DNA of 64,000 bases from positions 1-64,000 of the IMG/VR virus record IMGVR_UViG_3300008267_000030; one strand, written 5' to 3'. The translations under genes were made by a program, and so were the position numbers. This DNA comes from a virus. Below are positions 32,566-63,822 of this stretch, in pieces. The number at the start of each line of letters is the position of its first letter. Position 1 is the stretch's first letter. The notes below the pieces were generated by a model. That model saw only the letters and a program-made list of their open reading frames with translations, searched no databases and was not told where the DNA came from.

Positions 32566-35500
32566 TTATTCCGGTATATCGTATGCTAACGATCCCTTCT
32601 TTTTCATGCGCCTCATGATAGAATAACTTTGCGGAAGAGAACCTTCTCCTGGACCCTCTGGCTTAAAGAATTTTTCAAGCGCATTGCCCAGAATTGGATT
32701 GACCTCTTTTAAGGTTTCGATCATTTTCATGTCCTCCTGATATTGGTTCTCATACCTTTGGACAATCCGGCGGATGTCTCCCTCATTAAGGTAGCCACGA
32801 CCCATAAGAACGTCAATGTTTCCGGTTATCCCTTCGGGCAAAGTAACATTTATTTCCTTGCCAGCAAATCCAAGTCCGTAAGCAAGAGCGCCAAAATAAT
32901 CCGAACCTTTCATTTGACTTCTAACACGGTCTGTCTGCAGATGATCCATGATAGCCTGGAATGTCTTGTTATAATTTTCATTATAATTTTCGGATACAAC
33001 CGGGCCTACCATTTTTTCAAAAATGGTTTGGGCGTAATCCTCATGGCCTTCTTTTAGATACTTAAACAACTTGGTTTTGCGCTCATCAAACTTTTTCTCC
33101 CCAAGCAGGTCTGTCTTCTCAGCAAGTTTTGCATCCTTTCTCTTAGGGCTTTCCGACATTTCCTTAGTGGTCTTGGCTGTAATCCTTTCAATCGTAGCAA
33201 ATCCCGTAACAAAGGAAGCAAGCATCCCGGCAGTTCTGGCCAGTTCATATCCATCGTCTTCTTTTTTAATGTTTTTTCCTATTTGCTCCATTTGCCTTAC
33301 AGCAAGGTCAACAACTGGCACTCCGGTAGGATCGTAGAACAGGTCTGTGTTAGGGTCTTTGAGCGTCCCTTTGTTTTCCTCTGTCTGCTCCTTGTCTTTG
33401 TAAAACGCTGCAAACCCAAGCGCAAACGCCACTTTAGGAATTATTTTGGCAATGTTTCCATACTTGCCTACAAACAGGTTGAATACACCAAGTAAAGCAG
33501 ACGTTGCCAGACTTCTATTTTGCCTTCTCTTTCTTTCCTCCTCATCCTCGTCTTCAAAGTCAATACCCAGCGCCCACAAGGCAATTGCAATTGCCACCTG
33601 CTGGTAAAGTATGTCCATGCCAATTTTTACAGCAGCATACGTCTGAGTATTTGCAAGGATGCCAAAAACCTTTGCTCCGGCACTCCACCTTTCTTTTGCG
33701 TCAACTGTGCCGGACATATCCATAATAGTCCTCCAGTTGTTGCGAAAGTTATTGTATGCGTTAAGGTCAAATTGAGCAAGCATCCAGTTGATTTCTTTTC
33801 GGGTGAAATCATTTATGGACTTTTTCTCCGACCTTAGAACCTCTGCCTTGGTGGTTTGATTTGACGGTACGTTGATCTCATCAGAAAGGTTTTCTGCAGC
33901 GGCAAGCGCATTGTAGTTAGGATTTTTTATTTCCTCGTCCCAGTTAATTTCGGATGGGTCTTGAATTAAACCCTGCTTATTCAAACTGTTTGCATATCCC
34001 GCAAACAGGGCTGCTGCAGATACAAACCGGTCGGCCTTTTCAATTGTGTATTTGGCCATAAAATTTCGGGTGTTTTTAATCGCATCCCCGATTTTTACCA
34101 ACAATTTTTTAGCCCAGGTCTTACCAGCAAACTTGTTCAATTCCGCATACTGCTTTGAAACAAGACTCTCTGATTGATATGTTCTTTCACGAAGAGTTGT
34201 TGTGCTGTCAAGCCATCTCTTTTGCGCCTCCGTTGGCAATATGGCTGTTTTTAACGCCCATCCAGTAAGTTTAAAACTTACCCTTGCCTTAATCTGCAGC
34301 GCACCAATAGACTGTTTTGCATACTGTCCAAGGTCAACCAGAACTGCGCCAATGTTACCATTAACCAGTTTCTTAATCATCGGCTGGTCGCTTACGCCAA
34401 TGTACCCGAAATATCTTTGGCCATCCACTACGCCCTCCATAAAGGCCAGGATGACTTTAGTAGTACGGTCTGAGTACTGCGGGTCAAACAGATTTCTGAA
34501 CTGCTCAGACTTAATCATTCGGTCCATAACAAACAGTTCTTCTGTCATCTTCGCCTGATAAAGCGTCTGGTAATAGCGCTTCCGGAAGTTTGCAAGCAGG
34601 TCAGTGCCATAAACTACCGCATTATTGGTAAAGGTAGTTCGCTCAATGGCAGTCCTTGACTCTCGTCTGTCAATTCTGGCCTCCTCAAATACAGTGTCTG
34701 TGAGCGTAGGGTTTGATGATTCGTCTATGCCCCCTTTGCCCAGTCTGTCAATTACGTTTAGTGAAACGTACATTGGGTTTTCGGTTGGGTCAAACAACTT
34801 AGAGAAGAACGCTGCTGTGTTCTGGCGGAACTCCTCAGAGATTTCAGCGTAGAAATTGCGAACCATCTGCGCCAATTCGGCCTGCGACCGGTCTATTGTG
34901 GTGGCAAGGGTTTGATGCTGATCCGGGTCAAAGTCATTCTCAAGAATGTTTAGCGTCTGCTCGGCAATTCTAATTTCCTCTGCAAGAATATCCTTTTCAA
35001 AAATATTAGTGTAGCCGGATGACATCAACCGCTGCTCCTCCATTTTCTTGTTAAGATACTTATTCCAGTTAATCATCATCGCTTCCCTCCAAGCCTGCCA
35101 TGTTGAATTTTGGCTACCGGCCTGAGCAAGGATATTAAATACCTCCGTTGCTCTTACCGCTCTTTCATCCATATCGTTTTCAATGATATGAGTTTCAAGC
35201 GCCTGCAGATTATCGTCAGTTCTTTTCTTTACGTCTCCAAACAACACTTCCTCCCGCTGATAAAGTTCCGCCCGGAGTGTATCCTTGGCCTCCTCACTAC
35301 TTGATACGTTTTCAAGCAGGTTGTTAAGGGAAAACTTGGTAACGTCTCCTTTGTACTGCCTAAATTTGTTAACAAGCGTGTTTAGCCTGCTAAGCCTTTC
35401 CTGGGCCTCTCCTCTGGCTGCGTAAACTCCAAGGTCGCTCAGGTCATCCAGTTCAATGTAATCGTTCAGGATGTTGTGCAATCTCTTCAGTTCATTATCG

Positions 35501-60946: not shown

Positions 60947-61333
60947 TTATAAATTTTCGTTTGGTAAAGGTATTAAAATTGAATATTCTGTCAAAGCCCA
61001 AATGCGAATATTTTCGTAATACTGCTCCGCTTGTTCTGTTGTAAGACCGGTTGTGCTTTTTGCAAACCGCTCTACCTCTCCTGTGATCTGGTTTGGTTTT
61101 TCGTAGGCAAGAAACAGCCTTTTTAGAACATCGTGCATTTCATCCGGAAGGTATCCAAACTCGTCGCTTAGAATTTTTACCACAACTCCCCAGTAATACT
61201 TGTTCTCTTGACTGGAACGCTTTTTCCTAAATTTTTTAATGGTTACAACTTGTAACCCCTTCAGGTGTTTTAGCGTGTTGTACAAACTCTGTTTCTGATG
61301 GTCTTTGTCAAAATCCACTGCCAGCGTTATCAT
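60947..61333 (-). CDS. NinB-like recombination protein
   Basis: The 128-residue product resembles lambda NinB in layout: a beta start (VVTIKKFRKKRSS), then SSQENKYYWGVVVKI where the NinB family has SLDQNRKLW, then helices and STTGLTTEQAEQYYENI. Lambda NinB (Orf) is a recombination mediator that acts with SSB; this fits the SSB gene just downstream. The match is by pattern, so confidence is moderate. It overlaps the dnaB gene end by 26 bases. Confidence 0.7.
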   Translation of the reverse strand: MITLAVDFDKDHQKQSLYNTLKHLKGLQVVTIKKFRKKRSSQENKYYWGVVVKILSDEFGYLPDEMHDVLKRLFLAYEKPNQITGEVERFAKSTTGLTTEQAEQYYENIRIWALTEYSILIPLPNENL

Positions 61334-62660
61334 AGTTACTCATTCGCATTAGTGGTCCATCAAATCTTAAAGCAATCTGGCCAGTGTTCCCAGAACGCAT
61401 CTTTGCCTGGTCTATGATGCATACGTTTGCAAGGTCATAGGACTTCCCAGATATTTCCACCTGACCGGTCATTTTGTAGTAATCCGGCCTCATAAGAAAC
61501 CAAACGCAATCGGCATCCTGCTCAATACTTCCAGATTCACGAAGGTCAGATAACTGAGGCATTTTGTCCGGCCTTTCCTCCACACGCCTGCTTAACTGGC
61601 TAAGCGCAATTACGGGTATGGCTAACTCTCTGGCAAGTATTTTTAGACCTCTGGAAATCTCAGCAATGTCATTTTCTCGGTTGTTTCCTTTCTTGTCGGA
61701 CCCGGACATCAACTGCAGGTAGTCAATGAACAAAACCTTAATGCCATACTTTTTCTGCCACATGATTGCCCGGCTTCTTAATTTCCTAAGATTCATTTCG
61801 CCCTCGTCAAAAATCCGGATGTTCCAACCTCGCATTTTCTGCTTGCAAACATTTAGCGTGTTTTTCTCCCATTCGCTTAACTCCCCGCTTTTAATCTTAA
61901 AGGCAAACACCTGACTTTCCTGACTTACAAGCCTTTGCGCAAGTTCATGTTTAGACATTTCAAGACTAAAAATGCCGCATGGTATTCCCTGCTTTGCAAG
62001 GTTTCTAATAAGCGAAACTACAAGCGCCGTCTTACCTTGCCCTGGCCTTGCGCCCACAATTGTAAGTTCTCCGTCCGTTAAGCCTCCAGAAATTCTGTCC
62101 AATTCTGCAAGTCCGGTTGAATGCCCGCTAAGCCCGTTATTTGACCCCTTTAGCCATTTCTTCTGCGTATCTTCTAATACATCGTCAAAGGTCTGCTCCC
62201 CTCCACCTATTGCGTTTTGTAGCAGTTTTTCGGTCTCTGTTTGCATTGATGCTATGTGTGAAAAAACATCTACATCATCCTCGTTTGCTTTAATTAGCAA
62301 CTCCCTGGCCATGTTTGTTGCAGCCCTCCTTATATACATTTCCAGCAATATCCGTGCATGATTTTCAGCATGACCAAAATGGGTCGGCGCCGATACGATT
62401 TTTGCAAGACCGGCGGCCCCCCCTATAATCTGGAAAGATTTATTGGTTTTCATGTCATGAACCGTTGAGATCATGTCAACTGGTTTATCTTCCTCGTACT
62501 GCCTTTTTATTGATTCAAAAACTGCTCTGTTTCCTTCGTCGTAGAAAACCTGAGAGTTTGGTATGATGCTCATGCAAACCATTAGGTCATCTGGCATCAA
62601 AAACATTGCAGTCAAAACTGATTTTTCTGCATCTAAATCGAAAAATTTTCCCGTTTTCAT
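61308..62660 (-). CDS. dnaB: Replicative DNA helicase, DnaB family
   Basis: This 450-residue helicase has the DnaB layout. The N-terminal domain starts DLDAEKSVLTAMFLMPDDL. The RecA-like core has Walker A GARPGQGKTAL near residue 207, then FSLEMSKHELAQRL. Walker B is VLFIDYLQLMSG near 310, then VIALSQLSRRVEERPD and RESGSIEQDAD. Such hexamers unwind DNA at the fork. It lies two bases from the initiator-like gene, which probably helps load it. Confidence 0.96.
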   Translation of the reverse strand: MKTGKFFDLDAEKSVLTAMFLMPDDLMVCMSIIPNSQVFYDEGNRAVFESIKRQYEEDKPVDMISTVHDMKTNKSFQIIGGAAGLAKIVSAPTHFGHAENHARILLEMYIRRAATNMARELLIKANEDDVDVFSHIASMQTETEKLLQNAIGGGEQTFDDVLEDTQKKWLKGSNNGLSGHSTGLAELDRISGGLTDGELTIVGARPGQGKTALVVSLIRNLAKQGIPCGIFSLEMSKHELAQRLVSQESQVFAFKIKSGELSEWEKNTLNVCKQKMRGWNIRIFDEGEMNLRKLRSRAIMWQKKYGIKVLFIDYLQLMSGSDKKGNNRENDIAEISRGLKILARELAIPVIALSQLSRRVEERPDKMPQLSDLRESGSIEQDADCVWFLMRPDYYKMTGQVEISGKSYDLANVCIIDQAKMRSGNTGQIALRFDGPLMRMSNYDNAGSGF

Positions 62661-62662
62661 GA

Positions 62663-63352
62663 TTATTTAAAATTGAATTTAACCTCTGTTGATTTTGTAA
62701 ATGTTTGTTCTTTGGACTTAATCTCGTCTGCCTTTTCCTTCCAAGTTCCAGAAACTGCTGATTTCCAGTTTTTCATAGGACTTCTTCCTACCAACCATCC
62801 TTTGCTTTCATAAAAATTCCAGAACTTATCAGCAAACATCTTTGCCTGATTTGCAGTAAATCCATGCTTGTCCTTTGCGTACTCCAAAACCTCCTCAAGG
62901 GTCGGTTTTAAAAATTTTTGTACATATAATGTTTCTTTTGTATTCTGTTTATTTAGTAGGTGTACATTTTGTACATCGGGGCAGTGTACATTTTGTACAC
63001 CGGAAACCTCGATTTCCCGGTGTACATTTTGTACATCGGTAGCATCCTGAGACTCGCCGTAAATGATGTAACCCTTGCCGGCAAATCTGGTCCCCTGGGA
63101 GACTACATCAACCTCAAACAGGTAGCCAGCATTTTTCAATTCTTGAAAACACTTGTCAACGATCCTGCGACCAACCCGTAACCTTTCCTGCAAATCGTTT
63201 TTTCGGATAACCCAATCATCCGGGAGGCAAAGGATTGAAACCAAAACGCCAAGCGACTCCATGCTTAATCGTTCGTCTGTGATTGTTTTGTTTAGGATGA
63301 CCGTAAAATTTACCTCTGCTTTGGCCTTCCTGATGTAAATCTGATTTTCCAT
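62663..63352 (-). CDS. Replication initiator-like HTH protein with internal iterons
   Basis: This 229-residue protein has a winged helix-turn-helix N-terminal half (residues 30-80: DWVIRKNDLQERLRVG, then CFQELKNAGYLFEV), of a type common in phage replication initiators. Residues 104-135 hold repeats of VQNVH, which come from three 18-bp DNA repeats (62961-63038). A helical C-terminal part follows (EYAKDKHGFTANQAKMFADK). It is the first gene of the long - strand operon, next to dnaB, like lambda O next to P. The start is ATG 63352, behind the leader terminator. Confidence 0.8.
   Translation of the reverse strand: MENQIYIRKAKAEVNFTVILNKTITDERLSMESLGVLVSILCLPDDWVIRKNDLQERLRVGRRIVDKCFQELKNAGYLFEVDVVSQGTRFAGKGYIIYGESQDATDVQNVHREIEVSGVQNVHCPDVQNVHLLNKQNTKETLYVQKFLKPTLEEVLEYAKDKHGFTANQAKMFADKFWNFYESKGWLVGRSPMKNWKSAVSGTWKEKADEIKSKEQTFTKSTEVKFNFK
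62961..63038. repeat. Three 18-bp iterons (TGTACATTTTGTACA + YCG), candidate origin
   Basis: Copies at 62961-62978, 62985-63002 and 63021-63038 differ by one base in the tail (T or C). Each core is TGTACA-TTT-TGTACA, two palindromic hexamers. A partial copy (TTTTTGTACAT) lies at 62914-62924 in an AT-rich stretch (62908-62950). Repeats inside a replication initiator gene next to an AT-rich region are the usual design of theta origins such as lambda. Confidence 0.75.
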
Positions 63353-63356
63353 AAAT

Positions 63357-63412
63357 AAAAAAATCCTTTGTCAGCCTTTCGGGGTAGCGGTCCCTACTTG
63401 GCTAACAAAGGA
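63357..63412 (-). terminator. Terminator hairpin in the replication-operon leader
   Basis: On the - strand a 13-bp stem (arms 63412-63400 and 63376-63364) has one U-G pair and is followed by U7 (63363-63357). The loop can form a small GTAG/CTAC stem. On the + strand the U-G becomes a C-A mismatch, so the structure favours - strand RNA. It lies between the promoter and the initiator start, so it must attenuate the operon or end a short RNA. Confidence 0.75.
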
Positions 63413-63455
63413 CATGAATGTTTTAAACTCATCGCCGCTACTCGATGGTCCGAAG
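63357..63455 (-). ncRNA. Structured leader or small RNA upstream of replication genes
   Basis: From the promoter to the terminator a roughly 100-nt RNA would form two hairpins: CATCG/CGATG at 63430-63447 with an 8-base loop, and the long terminator hairpin. Seven loop bases of the first (63435-63441) are perfectly complementary to seven bases in the loop of the second (63384-63390). A loop-loop contact is possible. It could be an attenuator, a riboregulator or a stable small RNA. Confidence 0.5.
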
Positions 63456-63461
63456 ACGCAG

Positions 63462-63494
63462 CAAATGTAGAATATTTACTAACTTGCAAACAAA
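63462..63494 (-). promoter_or_regulatory. Promoter of the replication/late operon
   Basis: On the - strand TACATTTG (63462-63469) matches TAnnTTTG exactly. TTTG boxes lie 17 bases (63487-63490) and 21 bases (63491-63494) upstream. Transcription would start near 63455. It is the best promoter match seen in the window, and it drives the leader RNA and the initiator gene. Confidence 0.7.
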
Positions 63495-63498
63495 AACA

Positions 63499-63822
63499 AT
63501 GAAAAATATTATTGCAGTTTTATTGCTGTTTGCCGCTTCTTGCACCAGCGAACAACGTGAAAACATTAAAATTCAGGGAGAAGCCTACGAGGCAAAACCA
63601 GAATTGGTCATCGACAGCGTTTTGACTGCCCGGGTTGCCGCACTGGAAAAACACGCTCATTTCCAGGATTCAGTTATCAAGGTTCTTGCGCTTCATGCAA
63701 CTCATGCAGACAGCGTAAACGTACAGAAACAATTTAAGTCAGATCGTGCCGAGCGTAGAGGCCGTTTTCTGGGCGGTTTGATTAAGGGCCTGATTCCAGG
63801 TCTATCCGGAGCCGGTCGTTGA
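63499..63822 (+). CDS. Small lipoprotein, possible outer spanin or Rz1-like
   Basis: This 107-residue protein starts at ATG 63499, behind AAACAAAAACA; upstream extensions overlap the - strand promoter. It has a lipoprotein signal: MKNIIAVLLLFAASC with the lipid Cys at residue 15. The middle is helical (VLTARVAALEKHAHFQ) and the end is Gly/Arg-rich (GRFLGGLIKGLIPGLSG). A small lipoprotein next to a membrane-protein gene suits a spanin-type lysis pair, but it could also be an exclusion lipoprotein. Confidence 0.7.
   Translation: MKNIIAVLLLFAASCTSEQRENIKIQGEAYEAKPELVIDSVLTARVAALEKHAHFQDSVIKVLALHATHADSVNVQKQFKSDRAERRGRFLGGLIKGLIPGLSGAGR

Follow-up and report, generated by a model that had tools for sequence, protein, structure and literature searches.

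A kissing-loop leader RNA ending in a terminator hairpin precedes replication genes in phages of Bacteroidota

The window analysed here, a 64,000-nt stretch of a 72,149-base IMG/VR virus record, carries on its minus strand a replication operon in which a terminator-type hairpin followed by a U-run sits between the promoter and the first codon. This arrangement was described in the original prediction and is borne out by our analysis. The first gene (62663..63352) encodes a 229-aa replication initiator with a DnaD-like/initiator N-terminus and a phrog_15768 C-terminus, and is followed on the same strand by genes for a DnaB-like replicative helicase (61308..62660) and a NinB/Orf recombination mediator (NinB-like protein; 60947..61333). 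The first codon of the initiator, at 63352, is located 4 nt past the end of the U-run.

Read along the minus strand, the leader region begins with the promoter -7 element TACATTTG (63462..63469), which matches the TAHHTTTG element of Flavobacterium johnsoniae (PMC6847099) and is separated by a 17-nt spacer from a possible -33 element (TTG, 63489-63487). Since the last G of the F. johnsoniae -7 element lies at -5 (PMC6847099), transcription is predicted to start at 63457, where the 5' mini-hairpin GUC-UUCG-GAC (63448..63457) begins; a mini-hairpin of similar kind, GCC-GAAA-GGC, is present in locus L232. Hairpin P1 (63430..63447; CATCG/CGATG, 5 bp, 63447-63443 with 63434-63430) exposes the loop AGUAGCGG (63442-63435), containing the word GUAGCGG (63441-63435), and is connected by an A-rich linker with UUUAAAACAUU (63413..63429; family consensus close to UAAARACAUU) to the terminator stem P2 (63364..63412). 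The P2 strands UCCUUUGUUAGCC (63412-63400) and GGCUGACAAAGGA (63376-63364) form 13 bp, one of them U-G, and enclose a loop-E (bulged-G) internal loop (63378..63398; AGUA 63398-63395 and GAA 63380-63378) and, inside it, the 3-bp stem P3 (GGG/CCC, 63394-63392 with 63383-63381), the loop of which carries the word CCGCUAC (63384..63390). A U7 tract (63357..63363) directly 3' of P2 constitutes the predicted termination site. The promoter, both hairpins, and the U7 tract had been placed correctly in the original prediction, as judged from sequence and fold; it had overlooked the loop-E internal loop, the 3-bp stem in the terminator loop, and the mini-hairpin at 63457.

The two loop words GUAGCGG and CCGCUAC form the perfect 7-base complement claimed for them, and each lies in a hairpin loop of the minimum-energy fold. 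This fold has a z of -4.1, a stability equalled in 0 of 200 shuffles. A 7-base loop-loop match arose in 0 of 5000 dinucleotide shuffles and, besides the leader element, at 1 of ~6390 positions elsewhere in the window. On the minus strand of the window, no other hairpin with an adjoining U-run is as stable as P2.

Searches of IMG/VR with one protein at a time, namely the window's initiator, DnaB, and terminase, returned no relatives; the terminase is ~30% identical to its best matches, and this phage lacks close relatives in the collections searched. Aligning the initiator with its relative from Vibrio phage Seahorse led to 80 loci that share the C-terminal domain, four of which (L115, L117, L121, and L176) have pre-initiator leaders of the same plan with a different sequence: a promoter TAnnTTTG, hairpin P1, and an A-rich linker, followed by a long P2 with AGUA on its 5' side and GAA on its 3' side, P3, a loop complementary to that of P1, the U-run, and the start codon. 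A descriptor of this plan, run on ~1.7 Mb (3.4 Mb on both strands), recovered exactly the window and these four loci, with the background well separated. Other structured, U-run-ending leaders precede initiators with the same C-terminal domain in L145, L162, L180, and L189; they do not contain loop E and are not counted as members, and are possibly analogous elements.

In IMG/VR, the core DNA pattern AGTAGG..CCGAAAG..T6 yielded 109 stretches, and the pattern with P3 flipped (AGTACC..GGGAAAG..T6) yielded 42. Among the 152 pattern matches in total, a kissing complement of at least 6 nt, supported by P1, accompanied good P2 stems in 63 of 65 cases, intermediate ones in 20 of 55 (a few of these doubtful), and poor ones in 0 of 32. 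After removal of redundancy, 49 of 51 good-P2 matches contain the kiss, compared with 1.2 expected and a maximum of 4 over 60 rounds in which the upstream sequence was shuffled; the non-redundant members use 34 different kissing words. Together with the four loci found by protein similarity, one locus from a species-genome search (L311), and three cultured phages, the family comprises ~85 members. A search with a loop-sequence pattern was set aside, its 20 matches being GC-rich and due to chance.

Because a whole-leader alignment misplaced L176, covariation was measured on two cores. In alignment A7 (P2/P3 core, 36 sequences), pairing holds in 90.2% of cells and P2 has a covariation score of 0.812, compared with 0.222 in shuffles and 0.07-0.28 with the partners slid; the search itself fixed AGUA, the first P3 pairs, GAAAG, and the U-run, which are therefore invariant here. 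AGUA/GAA is also found in L115, L117, L121, and L176, which were reached through protein similarity and not through the motif, providing independent support for loop E. Flavobacterium phage elemo carries an AUUA variant, and in further members P3 is flipped to CC/GG. In alignment A9 (fixed-geometry P1/P3 cores of 12 sequences, the two parts linked through a short run of A), P1, the kiss (treated as a pseudoknot), and P3 reach a covariation score of 0.628 versus 0.167, with 94% of cells paired and 30-47% after any slide; the kissing partners of A9 were picked as complementary, so the kiss owes its significance to the upstream-shuffle test. The covariation for which the original prediction had looked to related genomes is therefore present in P1, P2, and P3.

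The P1-loop word and loop E are separated by a median of 36 nt (SD 3.1) despite the variable length of P2, which is more in keeping with a kiss within one molecule than with a dimer. Of 49 non-redundant members, 39 (0.9 expected) have a TAnnTTTG element no more than 25 nt upstream of P1, most commonly ending 5 nt before it; combined with the G at -5 (PMC6847099), this would put the start of transcription about 1 nt ahead of P1. In 25 of 47 members, the start codon follows the U-run by 0-6 nt, leaving no space for another promoter, so that these genes need read-through, and in about half of the members the distance is 8-47 nt. The window element has loops complementary over at least 6 nt, loop E, the U-run, and a promoter near P1, and on this comparative basis it is close to certain that it belongs to a structured RNA family of Bacteroidota phages. 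The structured, terminator-containing leader ahead of the replication operon thus stands as originally described, and its loop-loop pairing, there called possible, is borne out by the comparison.

Behind the RNA are replication genes of several unrelated kinds. An early downstream gene of replication type is found in ~18 of 20 sampled loci, a count that covers DnaD-like loaders, O-like and other initiators, primosomal proteins, primase-helicases, and DNA polymerases and includes genes sharing only a C-terminal domain with such replication proteins; tallies over 49 proteins add DnaB, VapE/BT4734-type primases, and homing endonucleases. In elemo, the RNA precedes the genes for gp17, for the replication initiation protein, and for the primase-helicase; in Croceibacter phage P2559S, the genes behind it are gp48 and gp49, the latter encoding a helix-turn-helix protein. 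As annotated, gp48 of P2559S (NC_018276, L498) starts at 33955, inside the RNA; it more likely starts past the U-run, near 34000. Genes resembling HNH, NUMOD, or GIY-YIG homing endonucleases lie directly 3' of the RNA in L194, L199, L202, L214, L218, L248, L257, and L266.

A covariance model of the RNA (R1) finds a single copy in 39 of 41 phage records. Among cultured phages, it matches P2559S (E 7e-12), elemo (E 9e-6), Flavobacterium phage 11b (E 2e-5), and F. columnare phage FCL-2 (E 0.011), and inspection revealed the kiss in all four; the core sequence of P2559S is the same as that of L221. In the other named Bacteroidota phages searched, either nothing reached the cut-offs used or the matches were ordinary terminators; weak matches in phiST, phi18:3, crAss001, P12024L, and one FCL-2 site were rejected on inspection as looking like ordinary terminators. 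Across ~85,000 bacterial and archaeal species genomes, 94 stretches fit the pattern and one copy is convincing, namely L311, a 3.8-kb phage-like Chitinophagaceae metagenome contig in which the RNA precedes a DnaG-type primase; it is also the sole match among 296 Bacteroidota genomes. By these searches, the family is essentially restricted to phages of Bacteroidota.

We propose, with a probability of roughly 0.55, that the element acts as a transcription attenuator of the replication operon, in which a co-transcriptional kissing-loop fold yields an RNA of ~100 nt and a fraction of read-through transcripts. The functions inferred in the original prediction, attenuation in response to a phage or host signal or control of replication by a short stable RNA, are both candidates. 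Transcription would start 0-2 nt before the first hairpin, and, as the RNA emerges, the P1 loop would kiss the P3 loop ahead of the closure of P2, whereupon P2 and the U-run would constitute an intrinsic terminator. The majority of transcripts would then end as a compact, stable RNA, and the read-through fraction would express the initiator and the helicase. The kiss and loop E would set either the efficiency of P2 formation or its resistance to RNA polymerase or a host factor. Predicted nascent folds (minimum-energy folds only) contain no conserved antiterminator, with a mean of 3 of 12 bases of the P2 5' strand pairing upstream; any regulation would therefore probably proceed via a protein, a ligand, or polymerase speed. 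We identified no regulator gene common to the carriers. Tentatively, and with less than even odds, the RNA might represent a new functional class in addition to a new leader fold: a folded, virus-specific RNA, present at about one copy per genome in unrelated Bacteroidota phages, that would control the switch to DNA replication by acting on the host's RNA polymerase, one of its termination factors, or a nuclease.

Besides the missing antiterminator and common regulator gene, two further observations speak against attenuation: a start codon 8-47 nt downstream also fits a separate RNA gene, and in a few members the genes behind the RNA are for homing endonucleases or methyltransferases, not for replication. 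According to the main rival, which is rather unlikely, the RNA is a stand-alone, trans-acting phage RNA of ~100 nt, abundant early in infection and binding a host protein or nucleic acid; the U-run would be a mere 3' end, and the replication genes would be expressed by leakage or from other transcripts. Its compactness from +1 to the terminator, its single copy per phage, and the recurrence of the same fold before unrelated first genes, sometimes at a distance from the start codon, are all in keeping with such an RNA. However, its position before replication genes is consistent, in half of the members the start codon follows the U-run by 0-6 nt, and the loop words vary freely with compensation, which indicates that the loops have a structural role and are unlikely seeds for (antisense) target recognition.

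A post-transcriptional role is improbable, though it would account for an RNA that begins at a hairpin: as a 5' mRNA element, the leader could shield the 5' end from nucleases or tune translation of the first gene, with the U-run serving as a ribosome stand-by site and termination being weak or irrelevant. The U-rich unpaired stretch does reach the start codon, and in Bacteroidota it is structure near the start, not Shine-Dalgarno pairing, that tunes initiation (PMC6847099). Moreover, in five members (L193, L242, L277, L281, and L298; 0.6 expected), four of which belong to one lineage, an extra copy of the P1-loop word directly precedes the start codon and offers the P3 loop a possible alternative to P1 as partner, at the translation start; as a family-wide feature, this third copy was rejected, being real in a few members only. 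Against this role, the members show the canonical form of an intrinsic terminator, a stable, GC-containing hairpin (median -17.9 kcal/mol) with 6-8 U behind it, and they retain the U-run even when the start codon is distant. Still less probable is a replication RNA whose transcript or 3' end primes or activates a phage origin near the initiator gene. The RNA usually lies near replication genes, and in the window three iteron-like repeats TGTACAAAATGTACA (62960-63046), 300-400 nt downstream of the leader RNA and inside the initiator gene, probably mark the replication origin, as in lambda O. However, such three-copy repeats occur in the window only, among 43 loci tested, leaving an association of the RNA family with origins or iterons unsupported, and the fold extends right to the U-run, with little left for an RNA-DNA hybrid. 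That the element is an ordinary terminator whose loops are complementary by chance might be argued from the abundance of terminators, others of which occur in the window, and from the post hoc choice of this site in the original prediction; recurrence of the complement with covariation in dozens of unrelated phages refutes it.

Compared with known systems, the attenuator reading places the element beside the intrinsic-terminator attenuators, including the rep leaders of plasmids pT181 and pIP501, which share with it a promoter, a structured leader, a terminator with a stable hairpin and U-run before the first codon, and a replication initiator gene. In contrast to these, the present element has a conserved kissing-loop and loop-E fold, occurs in phages before unrelated replication genes, and shows no alternative antiterminator fold among the minimum-energy folds. 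No antisense promoter of the form TAnnTTTG is found on the plus strand over the window leader, where weaker sites are possible. The put sites of phage HK022 are likewise compact two-stem-loop RNAs, located where an early phage transcript begins; put RNA, acting through the beta-prime subunit of RNA polymerase, prevents termination at later terminators, whereas the present RNA ends in its own terminator hairpin. The pRNA of phi29 is likewise a phage RNA of ~100 nt with variable yet complementary hairpin loops, but its kiss forms between molecules and it belongs to one packaging motor, whereas here the kiss has a fixed intramolecular spacing and the carriers' terminase families differ, with phrog_6681 in only 5 of 28 RNA-bearing records. 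The RNA model also matched none of 40 terminase relatives of the window phage, some of them fragmentary, and a packaging-RNA reading was dropped on both counts. Guanidine-II and other kissing-loop riboswitches likewise have two kissing hairpins in a leader; compared with guanidine-II, however, the family has no conserved ACGR loops and its kissing bases are free to change. The Rfam families 6S-flavo and Flavo-1 are known from the same host phylum. At the gathering threshold, Rfam 15 gave no matches in the window and only an unrelated tRNA across 15 member loci, and at relaxed E-values its matches were at chance level.

The RNA-discovery papers PMC2864571 and PMC8040213 and the other openly readable literature searched contain no description of the family; an earlier unlabelled prediction is possible. 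We regard the fold family as new, and its likely mode of action, that of a terminator-containing leader, as familiar. Little is known about the timing of gene expression in Bacteroidota phages, and a conserved RNA that heads the replication operons of phages with different terminases, and with replication proteins unrelated to one another, points to a shared control step, one undescribed in the sources searched. Its presence in cultured phages of Croceibacter (P2559S) and Flavobacterium (11b, elemo, and FCL-2) makes it directly testable, and the covarying kissing words offer ready-made orthogonal loop pairs for RNA structure work.

Two further genes were observed in this record. A divergent ORF on the plus strand (63445-63822) has its listed start, 63445, within the leader; its lipoprotein-like signal sequence MKNIIAVLLLFAASC suggests a true start near 63499. 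Past the end of the window, at 71354-71923 of the record (G000; 11354-11923 in L002), a gene that by eye resembles a RepL-type plasmid replication protein possibly encodes a second replication protein.
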